Virus record (IMG/VR): IMGVR_UViG_3300021961_007515
Coordinates: 1-27,240 of that record
Origin: a virus
DNA length: 27,240 nt
Direction: 5' to 3' (one strand)
The position numbers were made by a program, and so were the translations under genes. A model generated the notes under the pieces. It had not been told where the DNA came from and searched no databases. It saw nothing but the letters and a program-made list of their open reading frames with translations. Shown here piece by piece: positions 5,447 to 27,232 of the stretch. How positions within the stretch are numbered: position 1 is the stretch's first letter; every line of letters begins with the position of its first letter.

Positions 5447-5621
5447 TTTTAATTTCCTTCCATTGTTTATAAATTTCATAATCACCACTTGCAGTATAAC
5501 ACTGACCTGTTTCCATGTCAATGATTTTCCATTTTTTAGGACATTTAGTTAATATGGTCAAGTTTACTGGCTTGGTCAATTCTTCGACTTCTGTTCCATC
5601 TTGCAAAATTCTTTTTTTCAT
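5430..5621 (-). CDS. Small conserved-looking hypothetical protein (63 aa)
   Basis: 63 residues, reading MKKRILQDGTEVEELTKPVN then 'CPKKWKIIDMETGQCY', consistent with a single small beta domain. The segment KW-x-I-[IV]-D-x-ETG-x-x-Y is one I recall from short T4-like cyanophage proteins, without function. The start ATG overlaps the stop of the zinc-finger-like gene upstream (ATGA), and the end overlaps the next gene by 17 bases. Three lysines, an arginine and a lone cysteine near the middle do not form a metal site. Function unknown. Confidence 0.65.
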   Translation of the reverse strand: MKKRILQDGTEVEELTKPVNLTILTKCPKKWKIIDMETGQCYTASGDYEIYKQWKEIKNDFSN

Positions 5622-9986: not shown

Positions 9987-10539
9987 TAACACCTCCTAAC
10001 ATGTTGATAATTTCGTTATTGTTGTAAAGTTTACGACCTTTAATAAAATTGCTAAAGGTTGTGTACACAAGAGTTTTGTCTTCTTCATCTAATACGATTT
10101 CAGTGGCTGGCATTTTAACCAAAGTAAATCCAAAGTTTTCGTCCATAGGATATACTTCAAAATTTGTTTTAGTTAGAAGATGATACAATACTTTGTAAGA
10201 GTCAGAACATTTATATGACTTAGTATACTTCCTTCCCGGAGGTATCATGTCATGCATTAATACCCATTCGTTACAGCACTTAACACTGTTATTAAAATCT
10301 CTAACGACAAAATCATAATCATGATTAGCATCAATGAAAACAATATCATACTTTTTCTTTTTTTGCAGTCTTTCAAAAAATTGATCAGTAGTTCCAGTAA
10401 ACGTGCCGTTGCCGTTAATGTCTACTGATTCTTTAAGATGACATCTTATTTGATTAAAGTTTACTCCGTCATTGACACCTAACTCTAAATAAGTCTTATT
10501 TTCAATTCCGGGTAAATTATTAATGATTATGCTACTCAT
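9979..10539 (-). CDS. Class I SAM-dependent methyltransferase (Methyltransf_24 type)
   Basis: 186 residues. The SAM-binding motif I is KTYLELGVNDGVNF at about 15-28, and a 'KKYDIVFIDANHDYDFVVRD' segment gives the FIDxxHxY signature of the Methyltransf_24 group, which is often found in glycan and natural-product clusters. 'EWVLMHDMIPPG' continues the family's 'GG-hhhhHD' motif with a potential metal-binding HD. The start has GGAG seven bases upstream, and the gene overlaps both neighbours by eight bases. A sugar O-methyltransferase is the best guess from context. Confidence 0.78.
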   Translation of the reverse strand: MSSIIINNLPGIENKTYLELGVNDGVNFNQIRCHLKESVDINGNGTFTGTTDQFFERLQKKKKYDIVFIDANHDYDFVVRDFNNSVKCCNEWVLMHDMIPPGRKYTKSYKCSDSYKVLYHLLTKTNFEVYPMDENFGFTLVKMPATEIVLDEEDKTLVYTTFSNFIKGRKLYNNNEIINMLGGVSV

Positions 10540-11179
10540 ATCCTATCTCCAATCCTTCGTATTTTTTAATTTTTTTACAGAGTAATTTTGTATAACTCCA
10601 GGGTAAGAAATGAGTAGAGATGTTAGGACCAAAATTATAATTTAATTTAACTTCGTCTAATCTTCTGTACGTCTTACTATCGGTTTCATTAAGAAACCAT
10701 TTGTTATAAAAATGCTTTTTAGAAAGAGTATGATTCCATGAAGAGCTACTTTTAATGTAGCCCACTTCTTGGCTTAGATACATTGATAAATTTGCTTCTC
10801 TTAATCTAATATAAAAATCGTCATCTTCCCAACAACCACCAACATATCTTTCATCCATGGGACCTATTTTTCTAAACAATTCTTTTTTAAATCCAAAGAA
10901 TCCAAAACGATACATGCCAACAAATGCATATCCTTCCTCAATTAGTTTTACGGTTTTCTGTATATTCTCATCGATCGGTCTCATCTTATCTGACATAAGA
11001 ATAACGATTTCAGTGGTGCAAGATTCTACACACCGGTTTACTAGTTGTGAAAATGATTCAACTCCGGTTCCATCAAAGAAAGTAACACGCTCACTAATTA
11101 ATCCGCTAATTACATCCTTATGTAAATTAGGTTTGTTAGAAATTAGAAAACACGAATAATTTTTTATCTTTTTTGCCAC
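10532..11179 (-). CDS. GT-A type glycosyltransferase (family 2-like)
   Basis: 215 residues from a GTG at 11179. That start overlaps the previous stop as TAGTG and has AAGGA seven bases upstream; an ATG at 11221 would overlap by 43 bases and lacks such support. Seen: 'NYSCFLISNKPNLHKDV' opening, 'CTTEIVILMSDKMRPID' in the place of the DxD motif, 'GFFGFKKELFRKIGPMDERY', and 'GGCWEDDDFYIRLREANL', the acidic motif that usually supplies the catalytic base region in GT2 enzymes. The domain is short, so it may have minimal acceptor-binding parts. It presumably transfers one of the sugars made by the adjacent enzymes. Confidence 0.75.
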   Translation of the reverse strand: MAKKIKNYSCFLISNKPNLHKDVISGLISERVTFFDGTGVESFSQLVNRCVESCTTEIVILMSDKMRPIDENIQKTVKLIEEGYAFVGMYRFGFFGFKKELFRKIGPMDERYVGGCWEDDDFYIRLREANLSMYLSQEVGYIKSSSSWNHTLSKKHFYNKWFLNETDSKTYRRLDEVKLNYNFGPNISTHFLPWSYTKLLCKKIKKYEGLEIGYE

Positions 11180-12171
11180 TAGTAGGTCCTTACGGTGTAA
11201 CTCGCTTTTAATGTAGTACAATCTTTTACAGAAGGACTGCGCATGGGACGTTTTCTGTCTCTGATTTGTCCTATCAAATCTTCATTTGGAGTGAGGAAGA
11301 AAACTGCATCAAATTCATTATAATATTCTAAAGCTCTATAGTCAAACAATACAAATTTATCAAAATCTTTTAGTTGTTCAATCTCGATTTTATCAATACT
11401 GGTAGGTATAAGTATTCCTTCTTTATTTTCTTCTACTGTTTTAATATGCCGTAGATCGTCTATAACTGCATATCCGCTGTCATTTAACTGATTCCATGTT
11501 TCTGTTCGCATAGTAGATTTTCCAGATAGTGACTTTCCAACTACTGCAATTTTGTTGTATCCTAAACTTGTAAATAATTCCTTTGCTTCGTCGCTTGTTA
11601 ACACATCTCTAGTACATCTAAAGAACGGACGATTAACAGGAGTATCGCCTTTATAAATTATTTGTGAAAAATCTGTATAATCGATAATGTTCTGAAAATA
11701 TTTACTAGAAGGTTGCTTTCCGTGTCCCTCAAAGTACATGACTTTTTCTGTTTTAGCACACGCTCTAGAAAGAATACCATATCTATTTTCAAGTTCGTGG
11801 GTGTCAATGATAGCAAGAAACATAACAACATCTTTTTTAGATATGCTGTTCCAGAAAAAATTACTATCAAGATCGTCAACTACAAAATTTACATTGGATT
11901 GTAATTTTTCTTTTATTTCGTTTGCATTTGCAACTGCCGTTGCATCAAACTCAACACCTATTACATTCTTTGCACCCCATTTCTCTGCTTGGAATGCCAT
12001 TTGTCCCATGTTACAGCCTAGATCGATTACGGTTGCATCTTTAAAATCGTTGACATCATAATGCGCAATTCTGTCATTGACTTTTCTTGTGCCGGTTATT
12101 CCTAATTCTGGTATATCATGATATTCGGTAAACCAGTTATCTCTCTTCTGTCCGATGTTTTTCTTCCCCAT
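11179..12171 (-). CDS. Methyltransferase fused to a P-loop NTPase/kinase-like domain
   Basis: 330 residues in two parts. Residues about 45-190 are a class I SAM-dependent methyltransferase: motif I is VIDLGCNMGQ at 48-57, then 'VIGVEFDA' and 'NFVVDDLDS'. Residues about 207-330 start with a strand and an exact Walker A motif, GKSLSGKST at 212-220, followed by 'YAVIDDL', 'KFVLFDYRALEYY' and 'RDRKRPMRSP', like a small P-loop kinase with an arginine-rich lid. An open reading frame without interruption, with a good GAGGAAG nine bases upstream of the ATG, argues for a real fusion rather than a sequencing join. Its 3' end overlaps the GT gene by one base. The combined activity is unknown; the P-loop part may phosphorylate or sense a nucleotide in the same pathway. 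Confidence 0.76.
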   Translation of the reverse strand: MGKKNIGQKRDNWFTEYHDIPELGITGTRKVNDRIAHYDVNDFKDATVIDLGCNMGQMAFQAEKWGAKNVIGVEFDATAVANANEIKEKLQSNVNFVVDDLDSNFFWNSISKKDVVMFLAIIDTHELENRYGILSRACAKTEKVMYFEGHGKQPSSKYFQNIIDYTDFSQIIYKGDTPVNRPFFRCTRDVLTSDEAKELFTSLGYNKIAVVGKSLSGKSTMRTETWNQLNDSGYAVIDDLRHIKTVEENKEGILIPTSIDKIEIEQLKDFDKFVLFDYRALEYYNEFDAVFFLTPNEDLIGQIRDRKRPMRSPSVKDCTTLKASYTVRTY

Positions 12172-12173
12172 GA

Positions 12174-12230
12174 TTAATTTACTTCCTCGGTAAAAGAATC
12201 CAACGGAAGCAACAGTAAGATTTTTTTCAT
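12174..12230 (-). CDS. 18-residue ORF, possible gene remnant or leader peptide
   Basis: Reads MKKILLLLPLDSFTEEVN and stops two bases before the next start codon. Its ATG overlaps the cupin stop as TAATG, so ribosomes finishing the cupin could reinitiate here, and it fills the whole gap to the next gene. The opening resembles the first strand of many glycosyltransferase or B12-binding proteins, so it could be the stump of a deleted gene. It also contains the GAGGAAG used by the next gene as a ribosome site, so its role may only be coupling. Confidence 0.35.
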   Translation of the reverse strand: MKKILLLLPLDSFTEEVN

Positions 12231-12592
12231 TATTTTTTAACCTGTGTGCCTACAGTGCGTCTTACAATGTCATCGTGATTAAATTCTGCCCAATATAATT
12301 CAAATGCCACACCATCTTCAACTCCTTCAAATTGATGTATCTTGCCTGGCTTCACTTGTGTAAATTCTCCCGGGCCTAGGATAGTTTCGTCAACCAGTCC
12401 GTCTTGATCTCCAGACTGCCATACACGCACAATCATCTTTCCTGATTCTACAAAGAAACCATTCCATTTGTATTGATGCTCGTGTTCTGAACATTTAAAT
12501 CCTTTTTTAAACTCAATACGGTGAAACTCTAGCACACCGTTTGCATGGATCAATTCCGTCTGACCCCATATCTTACCTGCTTTCATAGTCAT
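12230..12592 (-). CDS. Cupin-domain protein
   Basis: 120 residues forming one cupin barrel. Seen: 'CSEHEHQYKWNGFFVESGKM' at about 34-53 (histidine cluster of cupin motif 1) and 'GPGEFTQVKPGKIHQFEGV' at 73-91 (motif 2, with its histidine). Metal binding is likely. Single-domain cupins in glycan clusters act as sugar isomerases, epimerases or regulators, and this could work on the keto sugar made by the SDR pair. The start has AAGGAAGAAAGG upstream; a second ATG two codons later is equally usable. A 39-base gap separates it from the upstream gene, and a TATAAT lies in it, but without a -35. Confidence 0.76.
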   Translation of the reverse strand: MTMKAGKIWGQTELIHANGVLEFHRIEFKKGFKCSEHEHQYKWNGFFVESGKMIVRVWQSGDQDGLVDETILGPGEFTQVKPGKIHQFEGVEDGVAFELYWAEFNHDDIVRRTVGTQVKK

Positions 12593-12631
12593 CCTTTCTT
12601 CCTTGCTCTATGGCGTTATTATATGTAATTA

Positions 12632-13138
12632 TCAGAGTAAGTTAGCCAATTCAACTACTTCTGACTGTCTGCTTATCTCTTTGACAAAATAAGCACAAGG
12701 TGGATTAGGTTCGTCGTGAAGCGGAATAGTTAATAATTGACCGTTCTTCATTTTTGGAAAATACCATCTTACGTCCTGATAGATATTAATAATTTCTACG
12801 GGCATAAACTCGCATCTATATCCTTTAATGGGATTAATTACAAATGCTTCAAACCCACGCTCATTAATAGAAGTTAATGGAAGAACTTCAGGATCGCTAC
12901 CGCAATCGCTATCTCCTACTAGGATGCACCAATCAAGTGGCATTTGAACTTCGTGTCCGCCAATCTTCATTAGTATAGCCGGACTATTAAAAGATTCTAA
13001 AAATATAAGTGGCTGAAAGAAAAAGTCTGGATTCTTTGGGTCAGAATTATCTAACACACTAAATCTAGCATCTTCAGAAACTTCTTCTGGTAATTCATTA
13101 AGGTCAAACGCCTTATTATCTAATGTTAATATTCTCAT
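12632..13138 (-). CDS. Conserved phage hypothetical protein (168 aa)
   Basis: 168 residues beginning MRILTLDNKAFDLNELPEEV and containing 'FFFQPLIFLESFNSPAILMK', 'VQMPLDWCILVGD', 'DPEVLPLTSINERGFEAF' and 'VRWYFPKMKNGQLLTIPL', ending 'FVKEISRQSEV'. I recall closely similar proteins in T4-like cyanophages, without function, so it may be a core gene of this phage group rather than part of the glycan island around it. The fold looks beta-rich. The start has AGGAG six bases upstream and overlaps the previous stop as ATGA. No catalytic motif can be pointed to. Confidence 0.75.
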   Translation of the reverse strand: MRILTLDNKAFDLNELPEEVSEDARFSVLDNSDPKNPDFFFQPLIFLESFNSPAILMKIGGHEVQMPLDWCILVGDSDCGSDPEVLPLTSINERGFEAFVINPIKGYRCEFMPVEIINIYQDVRWYFPKMKNGQLLTIPLHDEPNPPCAYFVKEISRQSEVVELANLL

Positions 13139-13674
13139 TGGTTCTCCTGTAAACCTGGGTATGTTTTTTCATGTCTGGCTATCCAAACATTATCGGGTCC
13201 TACTTCGTAAAATCCAATAACGTCCATAACTGCTTTTTCAACGGACGGATAATCTATATCGTGTCCCATCATCCAGCCATCATGTTTTAGTTTAGGCATC
13301 CAGGCAATTAAATCTTTTCTTACATTTTTATAAGTATGCGAAGCATCTATAAAGAAAAAATCTAAACTGTTATCAGCAACAAAATCTGGAGATACTCTAC
13401 TATCGGTTTCATAAGTTTTTAATCTATGTCCGTATTTCTCCTTGACCTTGTCATTAAAAAATTGTGTAATATCCTTGTCTATGGCATACATTTCACACAT
13501 AGGATTGTTGTCTAGAATATGGAACGTTGTTTTTCCTGTCCGGACACCAATTTCTGCACCTAATTTAAGATTATTGTTTTTAACAATATCGCTTAAAAAA
13601 TGTTCTCTCGTACCGCTAGTTTCTGATGTATACTTAACAATCAAATCTAACTTTTCGTTGTTAATTACTTTCAT
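13135..13674 (-). CDS. Class I SAM-dependent methyltransferase (Methyltransf_24 type)
   Basis: 179 residues from the ATG at 13674, chosen for the GAGGA six bases upstream; two earlier ATGs lie in the same frame but inside the previous gene. Motif I is 'LKLGAEIGVRTGKTTFHIL', and 'NSLDFFFIDASHTYKNVRKD' gives the FIDxxHxY signature, followed by 'GWMMGHDID' as the HD motif. It is a paralogue-level relative of the methyltransferase at 9979-10539, sharing the same motif order. It likely methylates a sugar or related small molecule. It overlaps the FkbM-type methyltransferase gene upstream by 14 bases, which gives a tandem methyltransferase pair. Confidence 0.8.
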   Translation of the reverse strand: MKVINNEKLDLIVKYTSETSGTREHFLSDIVKNNNLKLGAEIGVRTGKTTFHILDNNPMCEMYAIDKDITQFFNDKVKEKYGHRLKTYETDSRVSPDFVADNSLDFFFIDASHTYKNVRKDLIAWMPKLKHDGWMMGHDIDYPSVEKAVMDVIGFYEVGPDNVWIARHEKTYPGLQENQ

Positions 13675-14233
13675 TATTGTCCTCATAAAAAGCAATTGTA
13701 TCACTCTTATATTTTTTAACGGTAAATCCTAAATCTAATAGAAATATAATTGCTTCATCTGCTTCGTTTCTTTTATTCTCAAACATGATCGTCGGTCTGT
13801 TCTTTTTTAAAGTTTTTACAGCACCTTTGATTACATTAAGTTCGTATTGTTCTGTGTCAATTTTTATAAAATCGACATCATTAAAAAACTTATAATCGTC
13901 CAATCGTTTTACTTGAACTTCAAACTTTTCTCCATCAGTCCAATCCTTGTTTCTTAATTCAGAAATAGATCCGTGTTCTGGATTTTGTGTTTCGCTGTTT
14001 ACAATTAGTGTTTTAATTTCTTCACTATCTCCTAATGCAACATTATAACATTCTAAAAGTTTATTACTAGAAAGTTCCACAAAACTTTTTGGATTTGGTT
14101 CAAAACAAATAATTCTTTTAAACTTATCAACATACGGAAAAGATGTTTTTCCATTACTTGCACCTATGTCAATATATGTACGGAAATTTTTTATCTTAGG
14201 CATTGCCCAATCATCTATTTTAACTTCGCTCAT
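13661..14233 (-). CDS. FkbM-family methyltransferase
   Basis: 190 residues. Motif I is 'RTYIDIGASNGKTSFPYV' at about 18-35, then 'RIICFEPNPKSFVEL' and 'VDFIKIDTEQYELNVIKGA', the signature of the FkbM family in which a KID[TV]E(G/Q) segment contacts SAM and substrate. These enzymes methylate sugar or polyketide hydroxyls. The ATG overlaps the UvsW stop as ATGA and has AAGGTGG about five bases upstream, so this island gene is translationally coupled to a core recombination gene. Residues 150-190 ('TIMFENKRNEADEAI...') form the usual final strand-helix pair. Confidence 0.87.
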   Translation of the reverse strand: MSEVKIDDWAMPKIKNFRTYIDIGASNGKTSFPYVDKFKRIICFEPNPKSFVELSSNKLLECYNVALGDSEEIKTLIVNSETQNPEHGSISELRNKDWTDGEKFEVQVKRLDDYKFFNDVDFIKIDTEQYELNVIKGAVKTLKKNRPTIMFENKRNEADEAIIFLLDLGFTVKKYKSDTIAFYEDNNESN

Positions 14234-15681
14234 GTATCCACCTTTGTTACTGTGTGAGGATATTTTGCTTCTTTATAGAATCTTTTTCTCTCTGTTAAAT
14301 GTCTTTTTGCATACTTACAGGTAGAAGTAATATCCCAAATCTGTACAAAATCCTTATCCTCTGCCTTTCTTATTCCGCGCCCAATGCTTTGAATAACACG
14401 GACAAAACTTTTCCCGGGTTCAATAAGAACCAAATTAAAAATACGAGGAATATTAATACCAACAGCGGCAACCCCATAAGTAGCAATAATAATCTTTCCG
14501 TCACTTGTTTTAATTTCGTCATATTGTTCTTTTCTATCGTCTAGTTTCACATCGCCTTTAATAAATGTTGCTTCGGGAATATTCTTTAACAGTTTATTAC
14601 CTGTATCGATTCTATTAACTAGGACAAGAGTATTACCATTCTTAGCAACGGTATTAATATGATTAGCAATGTATTTTAAACGCTTCTCGTCGGTCACTAA
14701 CCAAGTATATTCTTCTTGGTAACTTCTAAACTCTTCAATATCTTTTGTTTGTAAAATTTGAATATCAAGTTTTGCTAATACACCCTTTTCTTGTAGGTCG
14801 TGTGCTGATACGTTGTTAATTACTGGTCCTATACTAGCAAGGATTCCTTGAAACTCCCATTTTTCCTTAGGCACAGTTCCTGTTAAACCCCAGCGTATAG
14901 GAGCATTCCTAAAATTTACTGTAAGTAATTTTTTAAGAACATCTGCCTTTGCTTGGTGTACTTCGTCTATGATAATTGCTCTTACACCTTCTGTAAATTC
15001 TGCAAGAGTTAGTGTATCACTGTCGTAACTTTTCTTGTCAAGAACATTAAGACTTTGCCAAGTACAAATAGTATGTGTATGATTTAATTCCTTGCGATCA
15101 CCAAAGTAAACACCTACATCAAGTCCTAAATTTTTGTAATCTTCTTCAGTCTGAACAACAAGGCTCTTGTTTGGTACAATAACCATTGTGCGGCCATAAG
15201 GCTCACATAAATGCGAAAGGGTAGCAGTCGTAATAGTCTTACCGGCACCTGTTGCAACCTCCTGTAACGATTGTGGATTTTCTAAAAATTGATTAACGAC
15301 ATCGTATTGATAGTCACGCAACACTATAGGTTGTCCTGCCTGTTGATGTCCTTCGGGCCAAACCTTTCCCTTGTCAGCCCAGTAATTTTCATCAATTTTA
15401 CTAAAGTCAAACTTATGATGCTCTCGCTGATCTATTACCTCAATATCATATCCGTCATTTTCAACTATAGGAAGTGCAACATCAAGATGTGCCAAGAAAC
15501 CGTTTCCACCAATTCCAAAGAAACTAACAGTTCCGTCCCAGCGTCCTAGTTTGAAAGCAGGCATGTGTCGTGCATAAGGAAGATCGTATTTTAATTTGTT
15601 AGCGATCTTCCTTCTAGTCTCGACAGCAAGTCCTTCGAACTTGATGTTTACTTCGTCTTTTATAATAAGTTTACAGTTCAA
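14230..15681 (-). CDS. uvsW: UvsW-like ATP-dependent DNA helicase
   Basis: 483 residues of superfamily 2, the size and layout of T4 UvsW, which remodels branched DNA and R-loops during recombination-dependent replication. Seen: a small N-terminal DNA-binding domain (about 1-100), 'RDYQYDVVNQFL' as the Q-motif region, Walker A ATGAGKT at 143-149, the DEVH box at 239-242, 'WGLTGTVPKE' as motif III, and 'VIQSIGRGIRK' as motif VI near the C-terminus. The start is TTG at 15681: an AAGGA lies eight bases upstream, no in-frame ATG fits, and the gene overlaps its upstream neighbour by 11 bases. All helicase motifs appear intact. Confidence 0.94.
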   Translation of the reverse strand: MNCKLIIKDEVNIKFEGLAVETRRKIANKLKYDLPYARHMPAFKLGRWDGTVSFFGIGGNGFLAHLDVALPIVENDGYDIEVIDQREHHKFDFSKIDENYWADKGKVWPEGHQQAGQPIVLRDYQYDVVNQFLENPQSLQEVATGAGKTITTATLSHLCEPYGRTMVIVPNKSLVVQTEEDYKNLGLDVGVYFGDRKELNHTHTICTWQSLNVLDKKSYDSDTLTLAEFTEGVRAIIIDEVHQAKADVLKKLLTVNFRNAPIRWGLTGTVPKEKWEFQGILASIGPVINNVSAHDLQEKGVLAKLDIQILQTKDIEEFRSYQEEYTWLVTDEKRLKYIANHINTVAKNGNTLVLVNRIDTGNKLLKNIPEATFIKGDVKLDDRKEQYDEIKTSDGKIIIATYGVAAVGINIPRIFNLVLIEPGKSFVRVIQSIGRGIRKAEDKDFVQIWDITSTCKYAKRHLTERKRFYKEAKYPHTVTKVDT

Positions 15682-16858: not shown

Positions 16859-16887
16859 ATTATACTATCTCTGTTAACAAAAATCAA
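16859..16887 (-). promoter_or_regulatory. Sigma70-type promoter of the 15671-16852/uvsW operon
   Basis: On the minus strand, TTGATT (16882-16887), 17 bases, then TATAAT (16859-16864); six bases later comes the ATG whose first base is 16852. The -10 is perfect and the -35 matches four of six positions. The 13 bases AGATAGTATAATA around the -10 are identical to the primase promoter. Transcription is predicted to start at or next to the start codon, and no Shine-Dalgarno sequence is present, so a leaderless mRNA is likely. Confidence 0.75.
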
Positions 16888-17741
16888 GAGTTTAGTTGTG
16901 CTAAAATATGATTTTCTAATCTTTTAATAGGAATGCCCTTGGATATTTCTTCCACGGTCCACTCGGTATGTGCTACCTTGACTAACCAATCCTGCCTATC
17001 GGGCAATACAGGATTTAGAATATTTTCAAATGTATCAGATACAGGATATGCTAGGCTAGACGAATCACATATGATAGGAGTACCTGCGATAGCAGCATGG
17101 ATTGGAACTCCGCTGTTATGATTGATTACACAATGATAATCATACCGTATATCAAAGTCGTCATAGGTTCCATCTATCTTAACTGGATTTTGCCTTATGA
17201 CATTTTTAAATTCGTGTTCTATTCCAGGCATTGGTGATCTTGGATGTGGTCGCAAAACTATTGTTTGATCTGTTTTTTCTCTTATTCTTTCGACAACAGA
17301 ATACACCCAAGAATCTACGGAAGGCATCCCTTCCCATTGCAAACTCTTAGAATGCTGTGTTGCAACTAGTATACTCTTTGATCTATATTTGTTTTCTTCC
17401 TTGAGATATATTCCTAACTCAGCAGGACGATCGATATCTAAATTAGCATCATTTCCAAATATTCCTAAACCGTGTATATGATTTAGACATATTCTCCACG
17501 TTATGTTTCTCTTCAGATTTCCTACTTCTATAATTACAATGGGTTTATTGTTTTTCCTGGCATTTTCAAAAATTAACTTGTTAGGTAACATACGTCCGTT
17601 CCATAACACCGACCAGATGACTGAAACATCCTCGTTATCGCTAACGACTTCGTGCCCTGCATGTTTGAGACCTTGCTCAAATGCATTGAAAATGTCTGGA
17701 CTGTTTAATGCACCGTGCTCTCTGAAAAGTTTGAACCGCAT
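16884..17741 (-). CDS. KpsC/KpsS-like glycosyltransferase, paralogue 1
   Basis: 285 residues, a GT-B-like protein of the capsule-synthesis type. Seen: 'IVLRPHPRSPMPGIEHEF' (RxHP motif), then 'CVINHNSGVPIHAAIAGTPI' (the 'N-S-x-x-x-x-x-A-x-x-G-x-P' sugar-nucleotide region), and a C-terminal 'WLVKVAHTEWTVEEISKGIP' shared in outline with four other proteins in the window. An N-terminal segment has 'SVLWNGRMLPNKLIFENARK', apparently the acceptor side. The start has GGAG about five bases upstream. It is the most distant member of the set and is divergent from the plus-strand pair at 17781. Polysaccharide transferase is the best guess; donor unknown. Confidence 0.68.
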   Translation of the reverse strand: MRFKLFREHGALNSPDIFNAFEQGLKHAGHEVVSDNEDVSVIWSVLWNGRMLPNKLIFENARKNNKPIVIIEVGNLKRNITWRICLNHIHGLGIFGNDANLDIDRPAELGIYLKEENKYRSKSILVATQHSKSLQWEGMPSVDSWVYSVVERIREKTDQTIVLRPHPRSPMPGIEHEFKNVIRQNPVKIDGTYDDFDIRYDYHCVINHNSGVPIHAAIAGTPIICDSSSLAYPVSDTFENILNPVLPDRQDWLVKVAHTEWTVEEISKGIPIKRLENHILAQLNS

Positions 17742-17750
17742 GTTCTCTCC

Positions 17751-17758
17751 AATAAATA
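17751..17758 (+). promoter_or_regulatory. Late-type promoter box AATAAATA (plus strand)
   Basis: The octamer AATAAATA matches the T4 late consensus TATAAATA at seven of eight positions and lies in the 39-base divergent gap before the plus-strand gene at 17781. Using T4 spacing, transcription would begin near 17764 with a 17-base leader. It is the only promoter-like sequence I can see for this plus-strand pair. Confidence 0.42.
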
Positions 17759-17780
17759 TAGTAGTATTTAATGGTTTAAG

Positions 17781-18179
17781 ATGAATAAATTTAAAAAAAG
17801 AATATCAAAAAACGTAAAAAAAGTTCCAATTGACTGCCTAGTTGTTGGTAACGGATTTGGAAACTTTGATAATTTACTAGAAATGTTTAATACAGTGTTC
17901 GTCTATGAAACTGACATAACAACCAAATCAAGAAATCTAGTTTTTAGAAAAACTATTGAAAGTACCTTTGATTTGAGAGACGTTACTGCTATTTTTATAG
18001 ATTTAGATAAATTACATATAATGGATCAGTTGTCGCCATTAATAACTAAAGTTGAGCCAGACATTTTTATAGAAGGCGAGGAAGTAATTCCTAAAACTCA
18101 AAGTAAACTGTTATATCAAATAGGATATAAAGCAATAGCACAATTAGGTTGGTGCCATCAATGGAGTAGATTAAAGTGA
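17781..18179 (+). CDS. Hypothetical protein, small Rossmann-like (plus strand)
   Basis: 132 residues: a basic N-terminus (MNKFKKRISKNVKKV), then strand-helix units 'IDCLVVGNGFGNFDNLLEMF', 'TVFVYETD', 'VTAIFIDLDKLHI' and 'PDIFIEGEEVI', ending 'GWCHQWSRLK'. The pattern resembles a minimal methyltransferase or FkbM-like fold that has lost parts, with GNGFG in the place of motif I, but the SAM motif is not convincing. It overlaps the glycosyltransferase that follows as GTGA, so the two form a small operon on the opposite strand from the rest of the island. No Shine-Dalgarno sequence is seen before the ATG. Confidence 0.66.
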   Translation: MNKFKKRISKNVKKVPIDCLVVGNGFGNFDNLLEMFNTVFVYETDITTKSRNLVFRKTIESTFDLRDVTAIFIDLDKLHIMDQLSPLITKVEPDIFIEGEEVIPKTQSKLLYQIGYKAIAQLGWCHQWSRLK

Positions 18180-19024
18180 GTATAACCGTAGTAACAACTT
18201 TCCATAAACAAGGATATGAACAATACGGAAAAAGGATGATTGAATCCTTTTTAAGAAATTGGCCTGCAGAAATAAAACTTTATGTGTATGCTGAAGATTG
18301 CACAGTGCAAGAGTCTGCACCTAACTTAATTGTAAAGAATCTTCATCAGGCAAGTCCTGAACTTGTTGCTTTCAAGGAGAGATGGAAAAACATTCCCAAG
18401 GCAAACGGAGACGTTAGTTCTGATCCAATTAGAAGTAAAAGAAAAGATTCAGGAAAAGGGTTTAAATGGCATGCAATAAGATTTGCACACAAGGTATACA
18501 GCATTTTTTCATGTGCCAAAGAATGTAATACAAAATGGTTGATGTGGATGGATGCAGACACTTATTGTCATAGTCCTATAAGTTCAAAGCAACTAAATGG
18601 ACTTCTTCCTGGCAAGCAAGAACTTTGTTACCTAGGACGAAAAGGAAAATATAGCGAATGTGGACTTTATGCTATGAACATGGAATCACAAAGTACTAAA
18701 GATTTCTTGACAGAATTTCAAAGAGTATATGACGATGCGGAAGGTCAGGGTGGAATATTTTCAATGATTGAGTGGCACGACAGTTTTGTCTTTGATGTTG
18801 TTAGACAAAGATTTCCTAACCTTAAACAGTATGATTGGGCAGCATCTTTACATGATTTAAGACCACGACCTGGTATGTCTAACGGTGAAGGACATCCTCT
18901 TATAAACTGCGAATGGGGTGCGTATTTAGATCACCTTAAGGGCGGAAGAAAGCAATTAGGTAAAAGTAAAAGAGACGATTTAAAGGTTCCTAGACCAGAA
19001 CCGTATTGGCAACAGTTTAAATAA
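18176..19024 (+). CDS. Glycosyltransferase, GT-A fold with DxD (plus strand)
   Basis: 282 residues from GTG at 18176, which overlaps the previous stop (GTGA) and has GGAG nine bases upstream. Seen: 'MSITVVTTFHKQGYEQYGKR' opening, 'KWLMWMDADTYCHSPIS' with D126-A-D128 as the nucleotide-sugar/metal motif, 'CYLGRKGKYSECGLYAMNM' and 'WHDSFVFDVVRQRFP', consistent with an inverting or GT8/GT2-like sugar transferase. The last eight bases overlap the end of the converging minus-strand gene, with no space for a terminator between them. Donor and acceptor are unknown. Confidence 0.78.
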   Translation: MSITVVTTFHKQGYEQYGKRMIESFLRNWPAEIKLYVYAEDCTVQESAPNLIVKNLHQASPELVAFKERWKNIPKANGDVSSDPIRSKRKDSGKGFKWHAIRFAHKVYSIFSCAKECNTKWLMWMDADTYCHSPISSKQLNGLLPGKQELCYLGRKGKYSECGLYAMNMESQSTKDFLTEFQRVYDDAEGQGGIFSMIEWHDSFVFDVVRQRFPNLKQYDWAASLHDLRPRPGMSNGEGHPLINCEWGAYLDHLKGGRKQLGKSKRDDLKVPRPEPYWQQFK

Positions 19025-19952
19025 ACTTTCTAAAAAACTGCCATGCTTCTCCGGAACGCAGTTCATCAAAGTTCCAATGACACATTGATAATTTTTCTAC
19101 CCAAGCCTGTCTTTCAAACATCTTTGGATCTTCAATCCTTTTAAGATTTGTGTTGCACACACCGAACGACTGGCTAATTTCGACCTGAGGGTCTGTAACA
19201 AAAGTTGGAACTCCGTCGATTGCACTAGCAATACTAGGTGAACTGTTATAAACAATCGATGCCCAAGCGTTAATAAGGTCTTGTCTAATATGGTTTTTAC
19301 TTAATGTAATATGTTTGTATTTTCTAAATATAGACTGATCAAACCATCTCTGCCATTTTTTATCTCCAGGGTGGACTCTTATAACAATGGGTCTGTCTGA
19401 AAAGGATCTTACCTTCGCAACAGTTTCTAACAGCCATTGATTAACAGATAATCCTTTCATACTCCAGCCACCATTTCTTTGACAACAAATTAGTATATGA
19501 GTTCCTTGTGTTCTCCAAGGTTTAAGTGATAGTCCTAGATTAGCACTTATCTTTTTCCATCTTAGCGGATCAACTTCGGTATCAAAATAAAATCCAGTTG
19601 TAGGAAAAACTCCATCAAAACTATATCTTAGATATGTCTTTGTATTTCCAGGATCTGCAAATAAAAATAAGTTACTATCAACTATCAAAGAACGCTTTCC
19701 ATTTTGTTTTTGCATATCAATTGCGTTTTGTCTTAGAGTTAAATGCGGAACTCCTTTCTTCCCGTCCTCATGCACGAATCCTTGTACAAATGCCACATCA
19801 CAAGGAATAGCATTCATGCCTCTGTGATCAACACCTTCGTCTCCCGAAGCTCTTACTCCTTGTAGAAAGTTATCTAAAATTAGAGGCTTTTCTGGATTAT
19901 TATTGTTTGGCGGAATTCCACCATAGTATGCAACTGCTTTAAATTTTGACAT
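19017..19952 (-). CDS. KpsC/KpsS-like glycosyltransferase, paralogue 2
   Basis: 311 residues. Seen: 'PLILDNFLQGVRASGD' near the N-terminus, 'RSLIVDSNLFLF', 'FYFDTEVDPLRWKKI', then the shared core: 'DRPIVIRVHPGDKKWQRWF', 'ASIVYNSSPSIASAIDGVPT' and the C-terminal 'WVEKLSMCHWNFDELRSGEA'. These match paralogue 1 in order and outline and the RxHP/NSxxxxxA...GxP pattern of capsule Kdo-transferase-like proteins. It overlaps the gene upstream by 14 bases, and its end overlaps the converging plus-strand glycosyltransferase. Only a weak GAGA precedes the start, so coupling is likely. Confidence 0.7.
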   Translation of the reverse strand: MSKFKAVAYYGGIPPNNNNPEKPLILDNFLQGVRASGDEGVDHRGMNAIPCDVAFVQGFVHEDGKKGVPHLTLRQNAIDMQKQNGKRSLIVDSNLFLFADPGNTKTYLRYSFDGVFPTTGFYFDTEVDPLRWKKISANLGLSLKPWRTQGTHILICCQRNGGWSMKGLSVNQWLLETVAKVRSFSDRPIVIRVHPGDKKWQRWFDQSIFRKYKHITLSKNHIRQDLINAWASIVYNSSPSIASAIDGVPTFVTDPQVEISQSFGVCNTNLKRIEDPKMFERQAWVEKLSMCHWNFDELRSGEAWQFFRKFI

Positions 19953-21072
19953 GATATTTCTCTATAATACGTTTTGCTGTTCCGTTCATTAATTCTTCTT
20001 TTGTGAATTGACTATAACTTAACATACAAAGCCAGTCGGTAATTTTTCCATAATATAGATCATTGATATCAGAAAGACTGTTTTTTGTAATGGGATTAGT
20101 AATGTGTTTTCCTAATGTAATTGCCGGAATACCTGCCCAAATTGCTTCAGTTGTTGCATTAGAATTAATGCTTATAACACAATAGTAATCCTCATTAAGT
20201 AGTTCTTTAAATAAATTAGTTCTTTGATTTAAAGGTGCTTTTTCTCTAAATTTGATAGGCTTATCTGTATACTTCCTTAATTCTGCTTCCACATCGTATT
20301 TCCAAGTTTTTAAATCGCAATGAAAAATACTTGCAGCAAACGGACCCGGTTCAATGACATATATAACATCACCGTTCTTTCTCCACGGAACAGGAAACTT
20401 AACGAAGTTCTCTAGCCTAGATGTAGGAGCATCAAAGTATTCACCATAGTGTAAATGATTTCTCACTAGTCTATGCCATTTTTTATTGGGCTCTAAAAAG
20501 TTTGTATAACCGCTATCTATAAACCAAAAAGGATAATTGTTATCTATTTTAGTGACCAACAGTTCTTCGTTACCTACTGTATTTCTAATTAAACAATCTT
20601 GATCATAGGAAACAAAATCTTTTCTTCGTATAAATGTTCCGTTTGAGTCTAAACTTAAACCTGTTCCCTTGACAAAATTTTTATATTTGCTGTTTTTATA
20701 ATTTTCAAATATAGTTTCTAATCCTAGGGTGTTAATAATCTTTTCAAGATTTTTATGTATTGTGTTAAAATCACTATTTTTCTTTTCTTTCAGCCAATCT
20801 CTTATGTAAGAATAATAATTTTCCATGTCCTTGGCTATCGCTTTTTTTAATTTATTATAGAACTTTTGTTTGGTATTATCATCCCAAGAATGTTTTGGTT
20901 TTACATAAACTTTTTTATTATCTAGTTTTCTTGCAACTTCCTTTTCGATGAACAATTGTTTTACATAGTTTACATTGTCCTCAGGCACAGGTTGTTTTTT
21001 TGCATCGCGATGTGTATCAACAAGGCTATGTAAAAAATTTGCAATTTCCTTATCGTTTAAAAGTAGTTTCAT
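19939..21072 (-). CDS. KpsC/KpsS-like protein with long N-terminal helical extension, paralogue 3
   Basis: 377 residues from the ATG at 21072, which overlaps the previous stop as ATGA; an ATG at 21153 would overlap by 85 bases. The first roughly 165 residues are lysine-rich and helical ('KFYNKLKKAIAKDMENYYSY') and have no match in the sister genes. The rest follows the family: 'FWFIDSGYTNFLEPNKKWHR', 'YCVISINSNATTEAIWAGIP' and 'WLCMLSYSQFTKEELMNGTA'. The RxHP position is 'KPIKFREKAPL', so the histidine is lost and activity may differ. The extension could be a scaffold or an oligomerisation domain. Confidence 0.7.
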   Translation of the reverse strand: MKLLLNDKEIANFLHSLVDTHRDAKKQPVPEDNVNYVKQLFIEKEVARKLDNKKVYVKPKHSWDDNTKQKFYNKLKKAIAKDMENYYSYIRDWLKEKKNSDFNTIHKNLEKIINTLGLETIFENYKNSKYKNFVKGTGLSLDSNGTFIRRKDFVSYDQDCLIRNTVGNEELLVTKIDNNYPFWFIDSGYTNFLEPNKKWHRLVRNHLHYGEYFDAPTSRLENFVKFPVPWRKNGDVIYVIEPGPFAASIFHCDLKTWKYDVEAELRKYTDKPIKFREKAPLNQRTNLFKELLNEDYYCVISINSNATTEAIWAGIPAITLGKHITNPITKNSLSDINDLYYGKITDWLCMLSYSQFTKEELMNGTAKRIIEKYHVKI

Positions 21073-21845
21073 GAGTATTTCTCTGTAAGTTCGTATGCCA
21101 TGCCATTTAAAATCTCTTCCATGGTAAATTGTCCGTATGCTAAGTTCATGCATTGCCTTTCTATTAAACTAGGATCAGGTTTAAATGGATTAGAAATAGT
21201 TGAAATGTCGGAACCTGCAATGGGTGTGGCACAGCAAGGAACACTCACTGTTGCAGGAACACCATATGCTACCGATTCTAGTGCTGCTATACTATTAAAT
21301 GCTACAGTAACAGCAGTTCCGCTATCTAGTGCATCATATATGGAATATGTATTATTACGATCACTTCGTGAACCTTTTATTCGTACTTCTACAGGTAACT
21401 TACTAAATTCTTTTAATTTATTTTCAGTTTCCTTAACCCATTCGTCATAATTTACATTATAATATTTGCAGGCCTTTGGATTAGGCATTACTAGTAATAT
21501 TTTTTTATTGTAATTTTTCCAGCCCTTCCATTCTAATCTAGGATCTTGTTTAATTAATTGTTCCCAACGATCGCTTGGTACATTTCTAATAATTGAGTGC
21601 TGATTCTCATTCTTAACTACTCTGTGCCATATTTTTTTACCACTTGGATTTCCTTTACTTGGAAAATTTCCTAAGTATCCAGTATCTATGTAGTAAAAGT
21701 CTCTTCCGGTTTCGATACATCTATTCACGTGATCTTTTTTAATAACGCCTCTCAGTACCAAGGGCTTGGAAGTTTCGTTGGTGTCGGTAGTAAGCCTATT
21801 TCCTGAGCCTATTACTAATGCTTCTTCTAAAGAGTAATCTTTCAT
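21069..21845 (-). CDS. KpsC/KpsS-like protein, paralogue 4
   Basis: 258 residues and the closest relative of paralogue 5 (22516-23322). Shared blocks: 'PLVLRGVIKK', 'RDFYYIDTGYLGNFPSKGNP', 'KIWHRVVKNENQHS', 'NYDEWVKETENKLKEFSKLP' then 'VEVRIKGSRSDRN', 'AVTVAFNSIAALESVAYGVP' and 'QCMNLAYGQFTMEEILNGMA'. Where capsule Kdo-transferases have RxHP this protein has VEVRIKG, as does paralogue 5. The start lies two bases past the stop of the GT8-like gene upstream and lacks a clear ribosome site. Family-level glycan function is inferred; a sugar-binding or transferase role is likely. Confidence 0.7.
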   Translation of the reverse strand: MKDYSLEEALVIGSGNRLTTDTNETSKPLVLRGVIKKDHVNRCIETGRDFYYIDTGYLGNFPSKGNPSGKKIWHRVVKNENQHSIIRNVPSDRWEQLIKQDPRLEWKGWKNYNKKILLVMPNPKACKYYNVNYDEWVKETENKLKEFSKLPVEVRIKGSRSDRNNTYSIYDALDSGTAVTVAFNSIAALESVAYGVPATVSVPCCATPIAGSDISTISNPFKPDPSLIERQCMNLAYGQFTMEEILNGMAYELTEKYS

Positions 21846-21847
21846 AA

Positions 21848-22519
21848 TTACTTCATCATCTCAAATAGTTCTTTTTTCCACAGATCAGAAAATTCACATT
21901 CTCTATAGTTTTCAAACCAAGGGCCGCCTTCTGTATAGTGTATTAGTTTAGGCGTTTCATAATCGTCATAAACTCCAACTAGGTAATTCCAAGTATGATC
22001 CAATTTTCCGATTTCTTCGTCTTTCAACCAACTAAATCGGTGCATATACTTTCCAGTTGTTTCAAGATTATTGATTAAGTCAGTAGTTACAACCTTATTA
22101 CTAGGATGACCGCAGTTCCATAATACAACACTTGACCAATTCTTACGTGGATATACTGTTTGTTTTTGTCCATCCATTTTTACACCTTCTTGTACTTTGT
22201 AATCGTGATGGACACACATAACAGCATACTTGTCGTCTGCTTGATCAAAAAGTTCCTTGATGTCTGTTGTAAGGATCATATCACAGTCCATAAACAATGC
22301 CCAGCCCTCAAAATTTGTAAGTTCTGGTATAAGGAAACGTGTAAAAGTAAATTCTGTGCTTGCAAGTTTATCTACAGGTCTAGTGTACCATCCTGCATCT
22401 CTTAGTTCTTGCTGTTTTAGCGGTTGAACATCCGCATTTGGCTGTTTACTTATAATACTGTGTTTACATACCTGATATGCAATGTCTTCTCTTGTGTCGT
22501 ATCCTACAAATACTTTCAT
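21848..22519 (-). CDS. Glycosyltransferase, family 8-like
   Basis: 223 residues from the ATG at 22519, supported by a TTGGAGGA four or five bases upstream and an ATGA overlap with the previous gene; a longer frame to 22600 is unsupported. Seen: 'MKVFVGYDTREDIAYQVCKH' opening, 'STEFTFTRFLIPEL', the DxD motif 'WALFMDCDMILTTDIKELF' with D78-C-D80, 'VVLWNCGHPSNK' and 'PKLIHYTEGGPWFENY', the order found in GT8 enzymes that use UDP-sugars. It sits between two of the KpsC/S-like paralogues, so it may act on the same polymer. Confidence 0.83.
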   Translation of the reverse strand: MKVFVGYDTREDIAYQVCKHSIISKQPNADVQPLKQQELRDAGWYTRPVDKLASTEFTFTRFLIPELTNFEGWALFMDCDMILTTDIKELFDQADDKYAVMCVHHDYKVQEGVKMDGQKQTVYPRKNWSSVVLWNCGHPSNKVVTTDLINNLETTGKYMHRFSWLKDEEIGKLDHTWNYLVGVYDDYETPKLIHYTEGGPWFENYRECEFSDLWKKELFEMMK

Positions 22520-23322
22520 TTTTCCTCCAACATCCTTTTGGCTTTGCCTGTTTGTAACTCGCTTATATGGAATTGACCATACGCTAGGTGACAACCCCAT
22601 TCAAATAATTTATCTCTATCGGGATAGTATGGAGTTTCAATCTTTGATAGATCTTTTAAAGAAACTGGTGCCGCTGCTGTTTGAGGTGCTAATGCAAATA
22701 CTGGAATGCCATGAAATATAGACTCGACTGCTGCGTTGCTATTAAAAGTTACAAGTGCAAATACGTCATTGTCTAATGCATCTTGTAATGTATCTGTAGT
22801 TAATCTGTCTAATCTTAATTTATTTCTTTTTCTAACTTCAACAGGTCTGTCGGTATGTTTTTTAATTTCCGTAATTGTTTCTGCGACCCAATTGTCATAA
22901 TCAATACCATAAAATTTCATAGGTTTTTCATCAGGTGCAGCAATTAATATTTTTCTTCCGTCTTTCTTCCACGGATTAAATTTTTTTCTAAATGCTTCAA
23001 ATCTATCTGCAGGTCTTTTAATTATTTCGTCACCGTGCTGTAAATTATTTTTAACTATTCTATGCCAATATTTCCAACCGTTGGGATTGCTTTGAGTTCT
23101 CTCATTTCCAAAGTATCCTGTGTCCATGTAATAGAAATCTCTTTGATCTGCCCAGCACTTGAACATAAATTTTTTCTTCAGTATTCCTCTTAACGCTATG
23201 GGTTCGTCGGATTCATTATAGTCAAAAAGGTCAGGATCAACTGGATCTGATCCGCAACCCCGAGCAAACATATTCATATAAGGGTCGTCTTTTCCTTTAC
23301 TTAAAAAAATCCATTTGCTCAT
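22516..23322 (-). CDS. KpsC/KpsS-like protein, paralogue 5
   Basis: 268 residues. Shares all blocks with paralogue 4: 'PIALRGILKKKFMFKCW', 'RDFYYMDTGYFGNERTQSNP', 'KYWHRIVKNNLQHGDE', 'DYDNWVAETITEIKKHTDRP' then 'VEVRKRNKLRLDRL', 'FALVTFNSNAAVESIFHGIP' and 'WGCHLAYGQFHISELQTGKA'. Its stop overlaps the GT8-like start (ATGA), and its start overlaps the stop of the cytidylyltransferase-cupin gene upstream in the same way, so all three are cotranslated. The likeness of paralogues 4 and 5, placed on either side of the GT8 gene, suggests a tandem duplication followed by an insertion. Function unknown at substrate level. Confidence 0.72.
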   Translation of the reverse strand: MSKWIFLSKGKDDPYMNMFARGCGSDPVDPDLFDYNESDEPIALRGILKKKFMFKCWADQRDFYYMDTGYFGNERTQSNPNGWKYWHRIVKNNLQHGDEIIKRPADRFEAFRKKFNPWKKDGRKILIAAPDEKPMKFYGIDYDNWVAETITEIKKHTDRPVEVRKRNKLRLDRLTTDTLQDALDNDVFALVTFNSNAAVESIFHGIPVFALAPQTAAAPVSLKDLSKIETPYYPDRDKLFEWGCHLAYGQFHISELQTGKAKRMLEEK

Positions 23323-24080
23323 CTTCTTTCTATATCCTCTTCAACGCAGGCTTCGCCGTATTGAACTTCTAAAATGTGTGCTAGGTCAGTTCCCGGATTT
23401 GATGCTTTGTGCCAAGTTCCTACAGCAATATCGTAACCCTTTTTTAATGCCTTTAATGTTTGTTGTTCTTTTCTTTCTTCCCATTCAGTAACCATGCTAA
23501 CTGTTCCTTTTAGGACATACCACATTTCGCTGCGTTTAAAATGTCGTTGATCCGATAAACTCTTTCCTGGTTCGATTACTAATTCCTTGACTTTGAATCC
23601 ATTTTGTGGTTGATCATCTAACACTCTATACCAACCCCAATTGCGTATAGTTTTGGGTGATTTCCATTCTGTTAGGATCCAACTCGAACTGTTCTTTTTG
23701 TCCGCGCCGCCGACACTAAATTCAAATGATAAATTTTGATCTGTGTGCGACATTTCTGGAATATTAGTTGATGTTCTATCTCCGCCGTTGGCAAAGATAA
23801 TGTGTGCTTCTGGATATAACAGTCTAGCATTATTAATCGCTTCTAAGGCTGAACCATCAGTATCATCAAACAAAAAGACATTATCGACCATTTCTAAGTG
23901 TCTAATAATTTGTGTTCGTTCGGTGCTTGGCATGAATGCTTTGCCTTTTTTGCGTTCGAGCCATCCGTCCGAATTAATACCAACTAACAGTTTATCCCCT
24001 AGTTGTTTTGCTGCTTTTAAATACTCAATGTGACCTGAGTGTATAGGGTCAAACCCACCAGTAACTAACACTATTTTCAT
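23319..24080 (-). CDS. Cytidylyltransferase-cupin fusion (activated-sugar synthesis)
   Basis: 253 residues in two domains. Residues 1-130 are a nucleotidyltransferase of the HxGH class: TGGFDPIHSGHIEYLKAAK with H14 and H17, then 'GDKLLVGINSDGWLERKKGK' and 'FANGGDRTSTNIPE', like the C-terminal part of HldE or glycerol-phosphate cytidylyltransferases. Residues about 145-253 are a cupin like the C-terminus of type II mannose-6-phosphate isomerase/GMP: 'NWGWYRVLDD', 'VKELVIEPGKSLSDQRHFKR' with H180, 'SEMWYVLKGTVSM' and 'GTWHKASNPG'. It may make a CDP- or ADP-linked sugar. The start follows an exact TATAAATA by five bases (see the promoter entry), predicting a leaderless late mRNA; it is the first gene of the second island's minus-strand run. 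Confidence 0.83.
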   Translation of the reverse strand: MKIVLVTGGFDPIHSGHIEYLKAAKQLGDKLLVGINSDGWLERKKGKAFMPSTERTQIIRHLEMVDNVFLFDDTDGSALEAINNARLLYPEAHIIFANGGDRTSTNIPEMSHTDQNLSFEFSVGGADKKNSSSWILTEWKSPKTIRNWGWYRVLDDQPQNGFKVKELVIEPGKSLSDQRHFKRSEMWYVLKGTVSMVTEWEERKEQQTLKALKKGYDIAVGTWHKASNPGTDLAHILEVQYGEACVEEDIERR

Positions 24081-26158: not shown

Positions 26159-27232
26159 TTACTCTCCATTGACAGATTCTGTTTCTACCTCCTTAACGGT
26201 TTCTTCTGCATCTGCAATGTCTGGCTTGTTGGCAATGTCATTAATAATCATGTCTAACTTTTCACCAACCCATGCCTTTCGGTAATCCAAATGCACTTCT
26301 CCGTTAAGGTCAGTGTATTTAAGTCGATTGCCGTCTTTCTTGAGTAAACCCTTCGCTTCGAAGAGATCAACCAATCCACTGTAAGGATCCATTCCTGTTT
26401 CGTACGGAATCTTAACTTGGACTGATTCAAATGGTTTTGCGTAACGTGTCTTCATAACCTTACAGGCTGCACGAATACCACGCACATCTGTTACCTTGTT
26501 ACCATCTTCATCTTCTTTTAGTTTCAATTTACGCATTGCTACTACAATAGATGAAGCATAGATAAATCCTTGTCCACCACTAATCTTGTCATCTGGATCA
26601 AACATATCCTGTGATGCATACGTGTGGTTAGTACATACCATACCTACGTTGTAACTACCAATCATGTTAACTGTATTACGCACGAGTGATGTCAGTGCCT
26701 TAGGCTTACGGCCCATGTCACCCTTCATATCACCCTTTTGGAATTGATCAACATCAGTTGGTGTTAGTAACATACCTAACGAGTCAATAACGAACAACAC
26801 CTTAGGTCGTTCTTCTTCCGCCATTTCTCTGTACTCTTTCATAAACTCACTAATAGTTTTTGCTACGTCGTCAATCATTGACATATTGAGTTTAAGTAGT
26901 TTTTCTTCTGATGTATCAACATTCAAAGCCTGCAACCACTTTTCATCAAGTGCATTCTCTGAGTCAACTAGTACTACAAAGATGCCTTGATCCTGTGCTG
27001 CCTTTACAATGTTTGCTGAACAAAAGTAAGATTTACCTGAACCGGATTCTCCAGCGAACACAGTAACCTTACCTAGCGGAACTCCCTTGTGGAAGTCACC
27101 ACTGATCAAATAGTTTAGAGCAAGGTTTCCAGTAGAAACCCAATCAGTAGGATCGTTAAATCCAATACCTAGTCCGTCAATGCTCTTTGTCAGACTTTTT
27201 CTAAATTTAGAAATATCAAATGCTTTTGCCAT
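26159..27232 (-). CDS. uvsX: UvsX RecA-like recombinase
   Basis: 357 residues, the size of a T4-type UvsX, which forms filaments on ssDNA and drives strand exchange for recombination-dependent replication and repair. Seen: 'STGNLALNYLISGDFHKGVP', Walker A GESGSGKS at 61-68, 'VVLVDSENALDEKW', Walker B 'VLFVIDSLGML', L1/L2-region 'KPKALTSLVRNTVNMIGSYN' and 'SQDMFDPDDKISGGQGFIYA', and an acidic C-terminal tail (EETVKEVETESVNGE). All motifs are intact. An AGGAC lies five bases before the ATG, and only eight bases remain to the window edge, so the promoter is outside. It heads the minus-strand block with the acidic protein, the coiled-coil protein and the second oxygenase. Confidence 0.96.
   Translation of the reverse strand: MAKAFDISKFRKSLTKSIDGLGIGFNDPTDWVSTGNLALNYLISGDFHKGVPLGKVTVFAGESGSGKSYFCSANIVKAAQDQGIFVVLVDSENALDEKWLQALNVDTSEEKLLKLNMSMIDDVAKTISEFMKEYREMAEEERPKVLFVIDSLGMLLTPTDVDQFQKGDMKGDMGRKPKALTSLVRNTVNMIGSYNVGMVCTNHTYASQDMFDPDDKISGGQGFIYASSIVVAMRKLKLKEDEDGNKVTDVRGIRAACKVMKTRYAKPFESVQVKIPYETGMDPYSGLVDLFEAKGLLKKDGNRLKYTDLNGEVHLDYRKAWVGEKLDMIINDIANKPDIADAEETVKEVETESVNGE

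Follow-up and report, generated by a model that had tools for sequence, protein, structure and literature searches.

The window we analysed, a marine fragment of 27,240 bases from a T4-like phage (the whole of IMG/VR record IMGVR_UViG_3300021961_007515), carries five related genes, K1–K5, in a glycan island bounded by uvsX and uvsW. We favour, with a probability of roughly 0.6, the reading that K1–K5 act one after another as glycosyltransferases in a glycan pathway of the phage: ancient, distinct members of the KpsC/WbbB/KrkA superfamily held in a fixed assembly line. A first-pass annotation of the sequence had noted that K3–K5 lack the histidine of an RxHP motif. The main point beyond that loss, as read from our alignments, is that the nucleophilic Asp of the related 3-deoxy-D-manno-oct-2-ulosonic acid (Kdo) transferases is gone in every copy.

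Homology of K1–K5

All five open reading frames (ORFs) are present on the minus strand: K1 at 16884–17741 (285 residues), K2 at 19017–19952 (311 residues), K3 at 19939–21072 (377 residues, with an N-terminal extension of ~120), K4 at 21069–21845 (258 residues) and K5 at 22516–23322 (268 residues). K3 starts at the ATG at 21072, overlapping the K4 stop; the longest ORF reaches 21153. Sequence comparison by all-against-all BLASTP puts their homology beyond doubt. K3, K4 and K5 form one branch with 28–42% identity (K4–K5 42%, E = 5e-61; K3–K5 30%, 1e-33; K3–K4 28%, 5e-23), and K1 and K2 are more distant at 19–25% (K2–K5 25%, 7e-14; K1–K3 1e-10; K1–K5 3e-10; K2–K4 7e-8). The weakest pairs, K2–K3 (1e-4) and K1–K4 (8e-4), are both connected via other members, and control proteins from the same region gave a best E of 0.1.

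The shared blocks named in the first-pass annotation are there. FYYIDTGY and WHRVVKN occur in K3, K4 and K5, RxHP occurs in K1 and K2 only, and NSxxAxxS and the C-terminal block run through K1–K5 in degenerate form, both in the alignment of the five and in that of 255 representatives. The similarity is not confined to the last 25 residues, since the K1–K2 alignment (24% identity, E = 3e-11) spans 291 residues. A tree of the 255 representatives resolves five orthologue groups, with support of 100 for K1, 99 for K2, 100 for K3, 97–99 for K4 and 92 for K5.

A fixed island under purifying selection

Scanning IMG/VR with K5, K2 and K1 yielded some 190 loci, on contigs of up to 198,723 bases, which we annotated with hidden Markov models (HMMs). 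They follow a single architecture: uvsX, orf254, a nucleotidyltransferase/cupin gene, K5 with a family 8 glycosyltransferase (GT8), K4, K3, K2, then GT7 and P8 on the opposite strand, K1, P10 and uvsW. Defining a complete island as one that extends from uvsX/orf254 through uvsW left 64 distinct examples. K2 is the most conserved K member and, like GT8, is found in 64/64; K1 and the nucleotidyltransferase–cupin are each found in 61/64, K5 in 51/64, K4 in 42/64 and K3 in 41/64. The exact order K5-K4-K3-K2-K1 is seen in 32 of the 64 islands and is broken in none (0/64), and on seven long contigs every K member lies inside this island. Because the island order is fixed and the five orthologue groups are supported, we conclude that the array is old and conserved.

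The ratio of non-synonymous to synonymous substitution rates (dN/dS), from a codon comparison of the window with 94–96% identical relatives, is 0.036–0.045 for K1–K5, similar to the neighbouring uvsW (0.023) and uvsX (0.056). K1–K5 are thus under strong purifying selection. Five copies within 6.5 kb could also reflect recent duplication under diversifying selection, and the first-pass annotation had proposed repeated duplication, with glycan diversity or receptor mimicry as the benefit. However, every copy is matched by orthologues, in the same order, in dozens of phages, the paralogues share 19–42% identity, and a dN/dS of ~0.04 contradicts diversifying selection, which leaves that proposal scarcely credible. 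The picture is one of an assembly line that has been conserved rather than diversified.

Kinship with retaining Kdo transferases

In the retaining β-Kdo transferases of families GT99, GT107 and GT140, a QxxxD motif is invariant; its Asp forms the covalent Kdo adduct and its Gln binds the Kdo carboxylate, while a (K/R)xHP motif binds cytidine monophosphate (CMP) (PMC10148158, PMC12887879). We modelled K2 and K5 with AlphaFold2, using alignments of 95 and 88 sequences, respectively (predicted local distance difference test scores of 97.0 for K2 and 96.3 for K5) and compared the models with the PDB using Foldseek. For K5, ranks 1–24 are all retaining β-Kdo transferases, namely KpsC (GT107), KrkA (GT140) and WbbB (GT99), with a best E of 5.4e-6. 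For K2, KpsC ranks first (E = 1.1e-7), with template-modelling (TM) scores of 0.48–0.57 compared to 0.28–0.37 for other GT-B proteins. The fold of the HP-motif inverting sialyltransferases (GT38/52/80) was not matched, the best such hit of K2 being the polysialyltransferase 5wcn at rank 48 (TM 0.30). The common fold that the first-pass annotation had asked to be checked is therefore seen in the two modelled proteins, K2 and K5, and extends to K1, K3 and K4 by sequence homology.

A second line of evidence comes from a QxxxD subgroup of the family, which comprises 13 representatives of extra island paralogues in related phages, the podovirus member L003 and the bacterial member L219. Its signature is Q-x-x-x-D-x-S, RxHP, a base Glu and a ribose Glu/Asp. 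Aligned by hhalign with KpsC/KpsS, the subgroup scores a probability of 96.9% (E = 1.3e-10) over 194 columns, and the Q, D, HP and base Glu line up; none of 20 controls with shuffled columns exceeded 0.4%. On this profile evidence K1–K5 are KpsC-like, linked transitively through their QxxxD-bearing relatives.

Several results weigh against so close a kinship. The Foldseek TM-scores are moderate (0.4–0.57) at a root mean square deviation of 7–10 Å, and the matches of K2 include general GT-B proteins (E = 1e-5). K1–K5 fall below the cut-off of PF05159 (Capsule_synth), as do the seven long contigs, and two QxxxD relatives reach 13–14 bits against a cut-off of 20. Direct hhalign comparison with KpsC is insignificant for K1, K3, K4 and K5 and gives 41–50% for K2. 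Because these direct matches are insignificant, superfamily membership rests on the fold and on the intermediates; the label KpsC/KpsS-like of the first-pass annotation holds in that sense but not as PF05159 membership. PHROG searches with K1–K5 gave no useful family, and sequence profiles of the PDB gave WbbB as a weak match (E ~2), with nothing useful from deeper profiles.

A genome scan with K2 found no close bacterial relative. Searching 398 genomes of the phylum with an HMM gave two clear cellular members, among them L219, which lies beside sulfotransferases, a GT2 gene and a GT29-like gene and scores above the cut-off of DUF6716 (PF20471; 32.4 compared to 27 bits). The nearest named viral predicted structures to the K fold are a CcrColossus protein and paralogues in Tetraselmis virus 1, a giant algal virus. 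The latter has at least four K5-fold paralogues (A0A2P0VNK4, A0A2P0VP54, A0A2P0VP74 and A0A2P0VP72), two of them named 'Capsule polysaccharide biosynthesis protein', and represents a separate multi-copy expansion.

Active-site states

We took a motif census on the alignment of 255 representatives, with residue equivalence to KpsC assigned by profile alignment. The nucleophile Asp is absent from all of K1–K5, and each group has its own replacement. K1 orthologues carry QxxxS with RxHP (60/60) and have replaced the ribose Glu, mostly by Q or H. K2 orthologues carry QxxxG with RxHP (56/56) and have A or G for the ribose Glu; hhalign confirms the register of the Asp position for K2. The ribose Glu is kept in the other three groups. 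In K3 the Gln position is P (48/48), the Asp position A or S, and RxK stands in place of RxHP (48/48); K4 has P and A/S at the two positions and RxK (32/32); K5 has P, P and Rx(R,K) (29/29). Every group keeps a base acid where an N-domain strand ends: E in 59/60 and D in one K1 member, D in 56/56 for K2, D in 48/48 for K3, D in 31/32 and E in one for K4, and D in 28/29 and E in one for K5. The K1 base Glu aligns with the Glu of the KpsC EDGF motif by hhalign.

In the window, K1 has Q129-H-S-K-S133 at the QxxxD position (17343–17357), R164-P-H-P167 (17241–17252) and E73 at the general-base position, and K2 has Q158-R-N-G-G162 (19467–19481), R192-V-H-P195 (19368–19379) and D92. The corresponding residues are P242-G-P-F-A246 (20335–20349), R276-E-K-A279 and base D187 in K3; P121-N-P-K-A125, R155-I-K-G158 and base D53 in K4; and P130-D-E-K-P134, R164-K-R-N167, base D67 and ribose-Glu E200 in K5.

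The complete signature (QxxxD, RxHP, base and ribose acid) occurs in the 13 phage paralogues, L003 and L219. Other states are found in Caulobacter-phage members (QxxxG/RxHP and QxxxW/RxKP) and in the second bacterial member, L220 (RVKP). The earlier division of the family by RxHP holds up, and each clade is fixed for its state: K1 and K2 with their orthologues have it in 116/116, and K3–K5 have RxK or RxR. Loss of HP alone is too narrow a definition of the split, as the nucleophile is missing in K1–K5 alike. Although they belong to the same superfamily, all five depart from retaining Kdo transferases in the key feature because the Asp of QxxxD is replaced. Some related phages have two or three QxxxD paralogues beside K2, K5-like and K1 genes (L111:3692-8010, L119:6985-13782), and these gene sets are natural material for comparing mechanisms.

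Since none of the five has the nucleophile, and K3–K5 have neither HP nor Gln, some or all of K1–K5 could be catalytically dead and serve as nucleotide-sugar- or glycan-binding scaffolds, or as chaperones for GT8 or the QxxxD sisters. We consider this unlikely: dN/dS is near 0.04, the base acid, the phosphate Ser and the active-site residues particular to each lineage are near-invariant, and five parallel scaffolds would be unparsimonious when most islands have no QxxxD partner.

Possible mechanism and donors

In the pathway we favour, K1–K5, GT8, the nucleotidyltransferase–cupin and sugar-modifying enzymes would together make a single defined glycan within the host cell during infection, with K1–K5 acting in sequence; one enzyme per linkage is plausible. 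The ancestor would have been a transferase for CMP-Kdo or another CMP-ulosonate that had QxxxD, a state that persists in the sister paralogues. In K1 and K2 the Asp would have given way to Ser and Gly, so that transfer would proceed without an Asp covalent intermediate or the role would be reassigned. As these two keep the carboxylate-binding Gln, RxHP and base acid, they probably still bind a CMP-ulosonate. K3–K5 have lost Gln, Asp and HP but retain the base acid, the phosphate Ser and the ribose Glu, and their donor is probably a different nucleotide sugar. We suggest only tentatively, from these residues, that K1 and K2 are active ulosonic acid transferases that work without the Asp, either by inversion or with another nucleophile such as the invariant K1 Ser. 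If so, they would stand mechanistically between retaining Kdo transferases and inverting enzymes of the sialyltransferase type, as natural intermediates whose sisters keep the canonical Asp.

The retaining Kdo transferases are described as an evolutionary puzzle, radically different from other GT-B enzymes and of unclear origin (PMC10148158). The phage family offers natural intermediates side by side (QxxxD complete, only the nucleophile replaced, or the whole donor motif replaced), so that the way the mechanism evolved can be put to a direct test. For hundreds of unannotated proteins of marine and jumbo phages, the family also provides a specific clue to function.

Phages do carry the Kdo enzymes KdsA (Kdo-8-P synthase) and KdsB (CMP-Kdo synthetase) near K-type enzymes. 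L113 contains a QxxxD paralogue and, a few kb away from the island, a KdsA–KdsB tandem whose KdsA scores above the TIGR01362 cut-off. Such tandems occur downstream of the glycan island in three marine phages (L113:15964-17350, L203:8672-10091 and L193:15728-16850); our literature search, which matched mostly bacterial genome papers, found no paper on phage-encoded tandem KdsA/KdsB. Of the 15 contigs with a QxxxD paralogue, 5 have a KdsB-family gene, compared to 1 of the 22 without (Fisher p 0.03), a weak and at most suggestive association because the contigs are incomplete fragments and some are near-copies. We count the association in favour of our reading; its weakness counts against it, as does the guesswork in assigning an acceptor below. 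NeuB was searched for in the contigs and none was found. No KdsB is seen in the window, and K1 and K2 would therefore use host CMP-Kdo. Gram-negative lipopolysaccharide (LPS) synthesis provides a general basis for such a supply. The nucleotidyltransferase–cupin (23319–24080, minus strand), an HldE/TagD-like domain (PF01467, E = 1.7e-15) fused to a phosphomannose isomerase-type cupin (PF01050, E = 3e-18), matches TIGR02199 below cut-off. It is probably a donor-sugar enzyme, presumably supplying another activated sugar. GT8 lies at 21848–22600 on the minus strand (PF01501 above cut-off at E = 1.5e-5, phrog_28018).

Possible acceptors

Our first guess at the acceptor is a phage structural (virion) protein; host LPS or capsule comes close behind. 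We lean towards the former because no Wzx-type flippase was found in the 16 long contigs searched, because K-type genes follow a tail gene in Caulobacter phages, and because virion glycoproteins have been detected by proteomics in the Xanthomonas jumbo phage XacN1 (PMC5852040). In Caulobacter phages C1 and CcrPW the K-type genes come directly after the gene of a large tail protein (phrog_11660). Those of C1 are accompanied by a sialyltransferase-like gene, a GT8 of the window's PHROG (28018) and a GT9-like gene, and a lysozyme is next.

It is possible, if less probable, that the pathway alters host LPS or capsule during infection, to mask receptors or exclude superinfecting phages, a role already proposed for polysaccharide clusters in cyanophages and jumbo phages. 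The combination of dehydratase, reductase, cupin, HIGH-family nucleotidyltransferase and paralogous glycosyltransferases is like that of clusters to which PMC7824862 ascribes O-antigen or capsule modification, GT25 and GT8 are LPS-type, and phage KdsA/KdsB would feed LPS-type sugars. The missing flippase and the tail-gene context argue against it, as does the conservation of the K arrays, which are under purifying selection and not polymorphic, yet modification of the LPS core at the cytoplasmic face is compatible with all of these points.

A role in glycosylating hypermodified phage DNA seems very unlikely to us. Phage glycosyltransferases that act on DNA are common (as cited in PMC12619734) and the island sits amid replication and recombination genes. 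However, no ThyA-type pyrimidine hydroxymethylase or thymidylate synthase was found in the same 16 contigs, the fold is that of Kdo transferases and not of T4 DNA glucosyltransferases, and the Caulobacter relatives belong to a tail module.

Other genes of the window

The island is flanked by a UvsX/RecA-like recombinase (26159–27232, minus strand), whose nearest relatives are in the Rhizobiales jumbo phages Atu_ph07 and Phosso (67–68%) and also in the CBB/XaC1/Munch group, and by a UvsW-like helicase (14230–15681, minus strand; PF04851/PF00271). Two plus-strand genes occupy the K2–K1 interval. GT7 (18176–19024), conserved in position by synteny, is a putative glycosyltransferase (PF00535, GT2, below cut-off at E = 0.08), and P8 (17781–18179), conserved and adjoining K1, encodes a small island protein of no family. 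P10 (15671–16852, 393 residues), between K1 and uvsW, is kept in most islands and has no Pfam family and a weak PHROG match.

A second glycan stretch lies downstream of uvsW (7508–14233, minus strand), with GT25, an RmlD-like reductase, a PseB/FnlA-like dehydratase, methyltransferases including FkbM, GT7C and a cupin. Further along are a NodU/CmcH-type carbamoyltransferase (326–1798, minus strand; PF16861, E = 3e-52; PF02543, E = 6e-40) and, at 5618–6337, a 239-residue protein with an N-terminal C2H2-like zinc finger (PF00096, E = 3e-4, just below cut-off), which also adjoins KdsB in L233.

Comparison with known systems

KpsC (GT107) and KpsS, the retaining β-Kdo transferases of the E. coli group 2 capsule, share with K1–K5 a common fold, the profile link through the QxxxD subgroup and the order of blocks: base acid at a strand end (EDGF corresponding to DTGY/EVG), strand-Q loop, RxHP in K1 and K2, and S..E. 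Unlike KpsC/KpsS, K1–K5 lack the Asp nucleophile, K3–K5 also lack HP and Gln, and the proteins are single-domain, phage-encoded and without a PF05159 match. WbbB (GT99) and KrkA (GT140), the next-best structural matches, have the QxxxD and HP logic in common with the family; the same residues differ, and direct sequence similarity is detectable only in the HP–NS region. To the putative glycosyltransferases of DUF6716, K5 has a weak match (16 bits); K1–K5 are all below cut-off, with matches of at most 40 residues.

Among phages, Pelagibacter phage Mosig EXVC030M and Caulobacter phages C1 and CcrPW each have two distant K-family members, annotated as hypothetical, with GT8 beside them in Mosig and C1. 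The two Mosig genes flank a sulfotransferase, with GT8 adjoining (L001:13491-15753); bacterial L219 also adjoins sulfotransferases. The first-pass annotation knew of no described phage system with this set. We likewise found none for the K family, but phage glycan clusters with nucleotidyltransferase, cupin, epimerase and paralogous glycosyltransferases have been described. The closest in content are the polysaccharide clusters of cyanophages and jumbo phages (Iyer 2021, PMC7824862), whose co-located epimerase/dehydratase, cupin, HIGH-superfamily nucleotidyltransferase and paralogous glycosyltransferases are all found in the window. What distinguishes the window from these clusters is its mainstay, a five-member KpsC-fold array in fixed order, to which some relatives add KdsA and KdsB.

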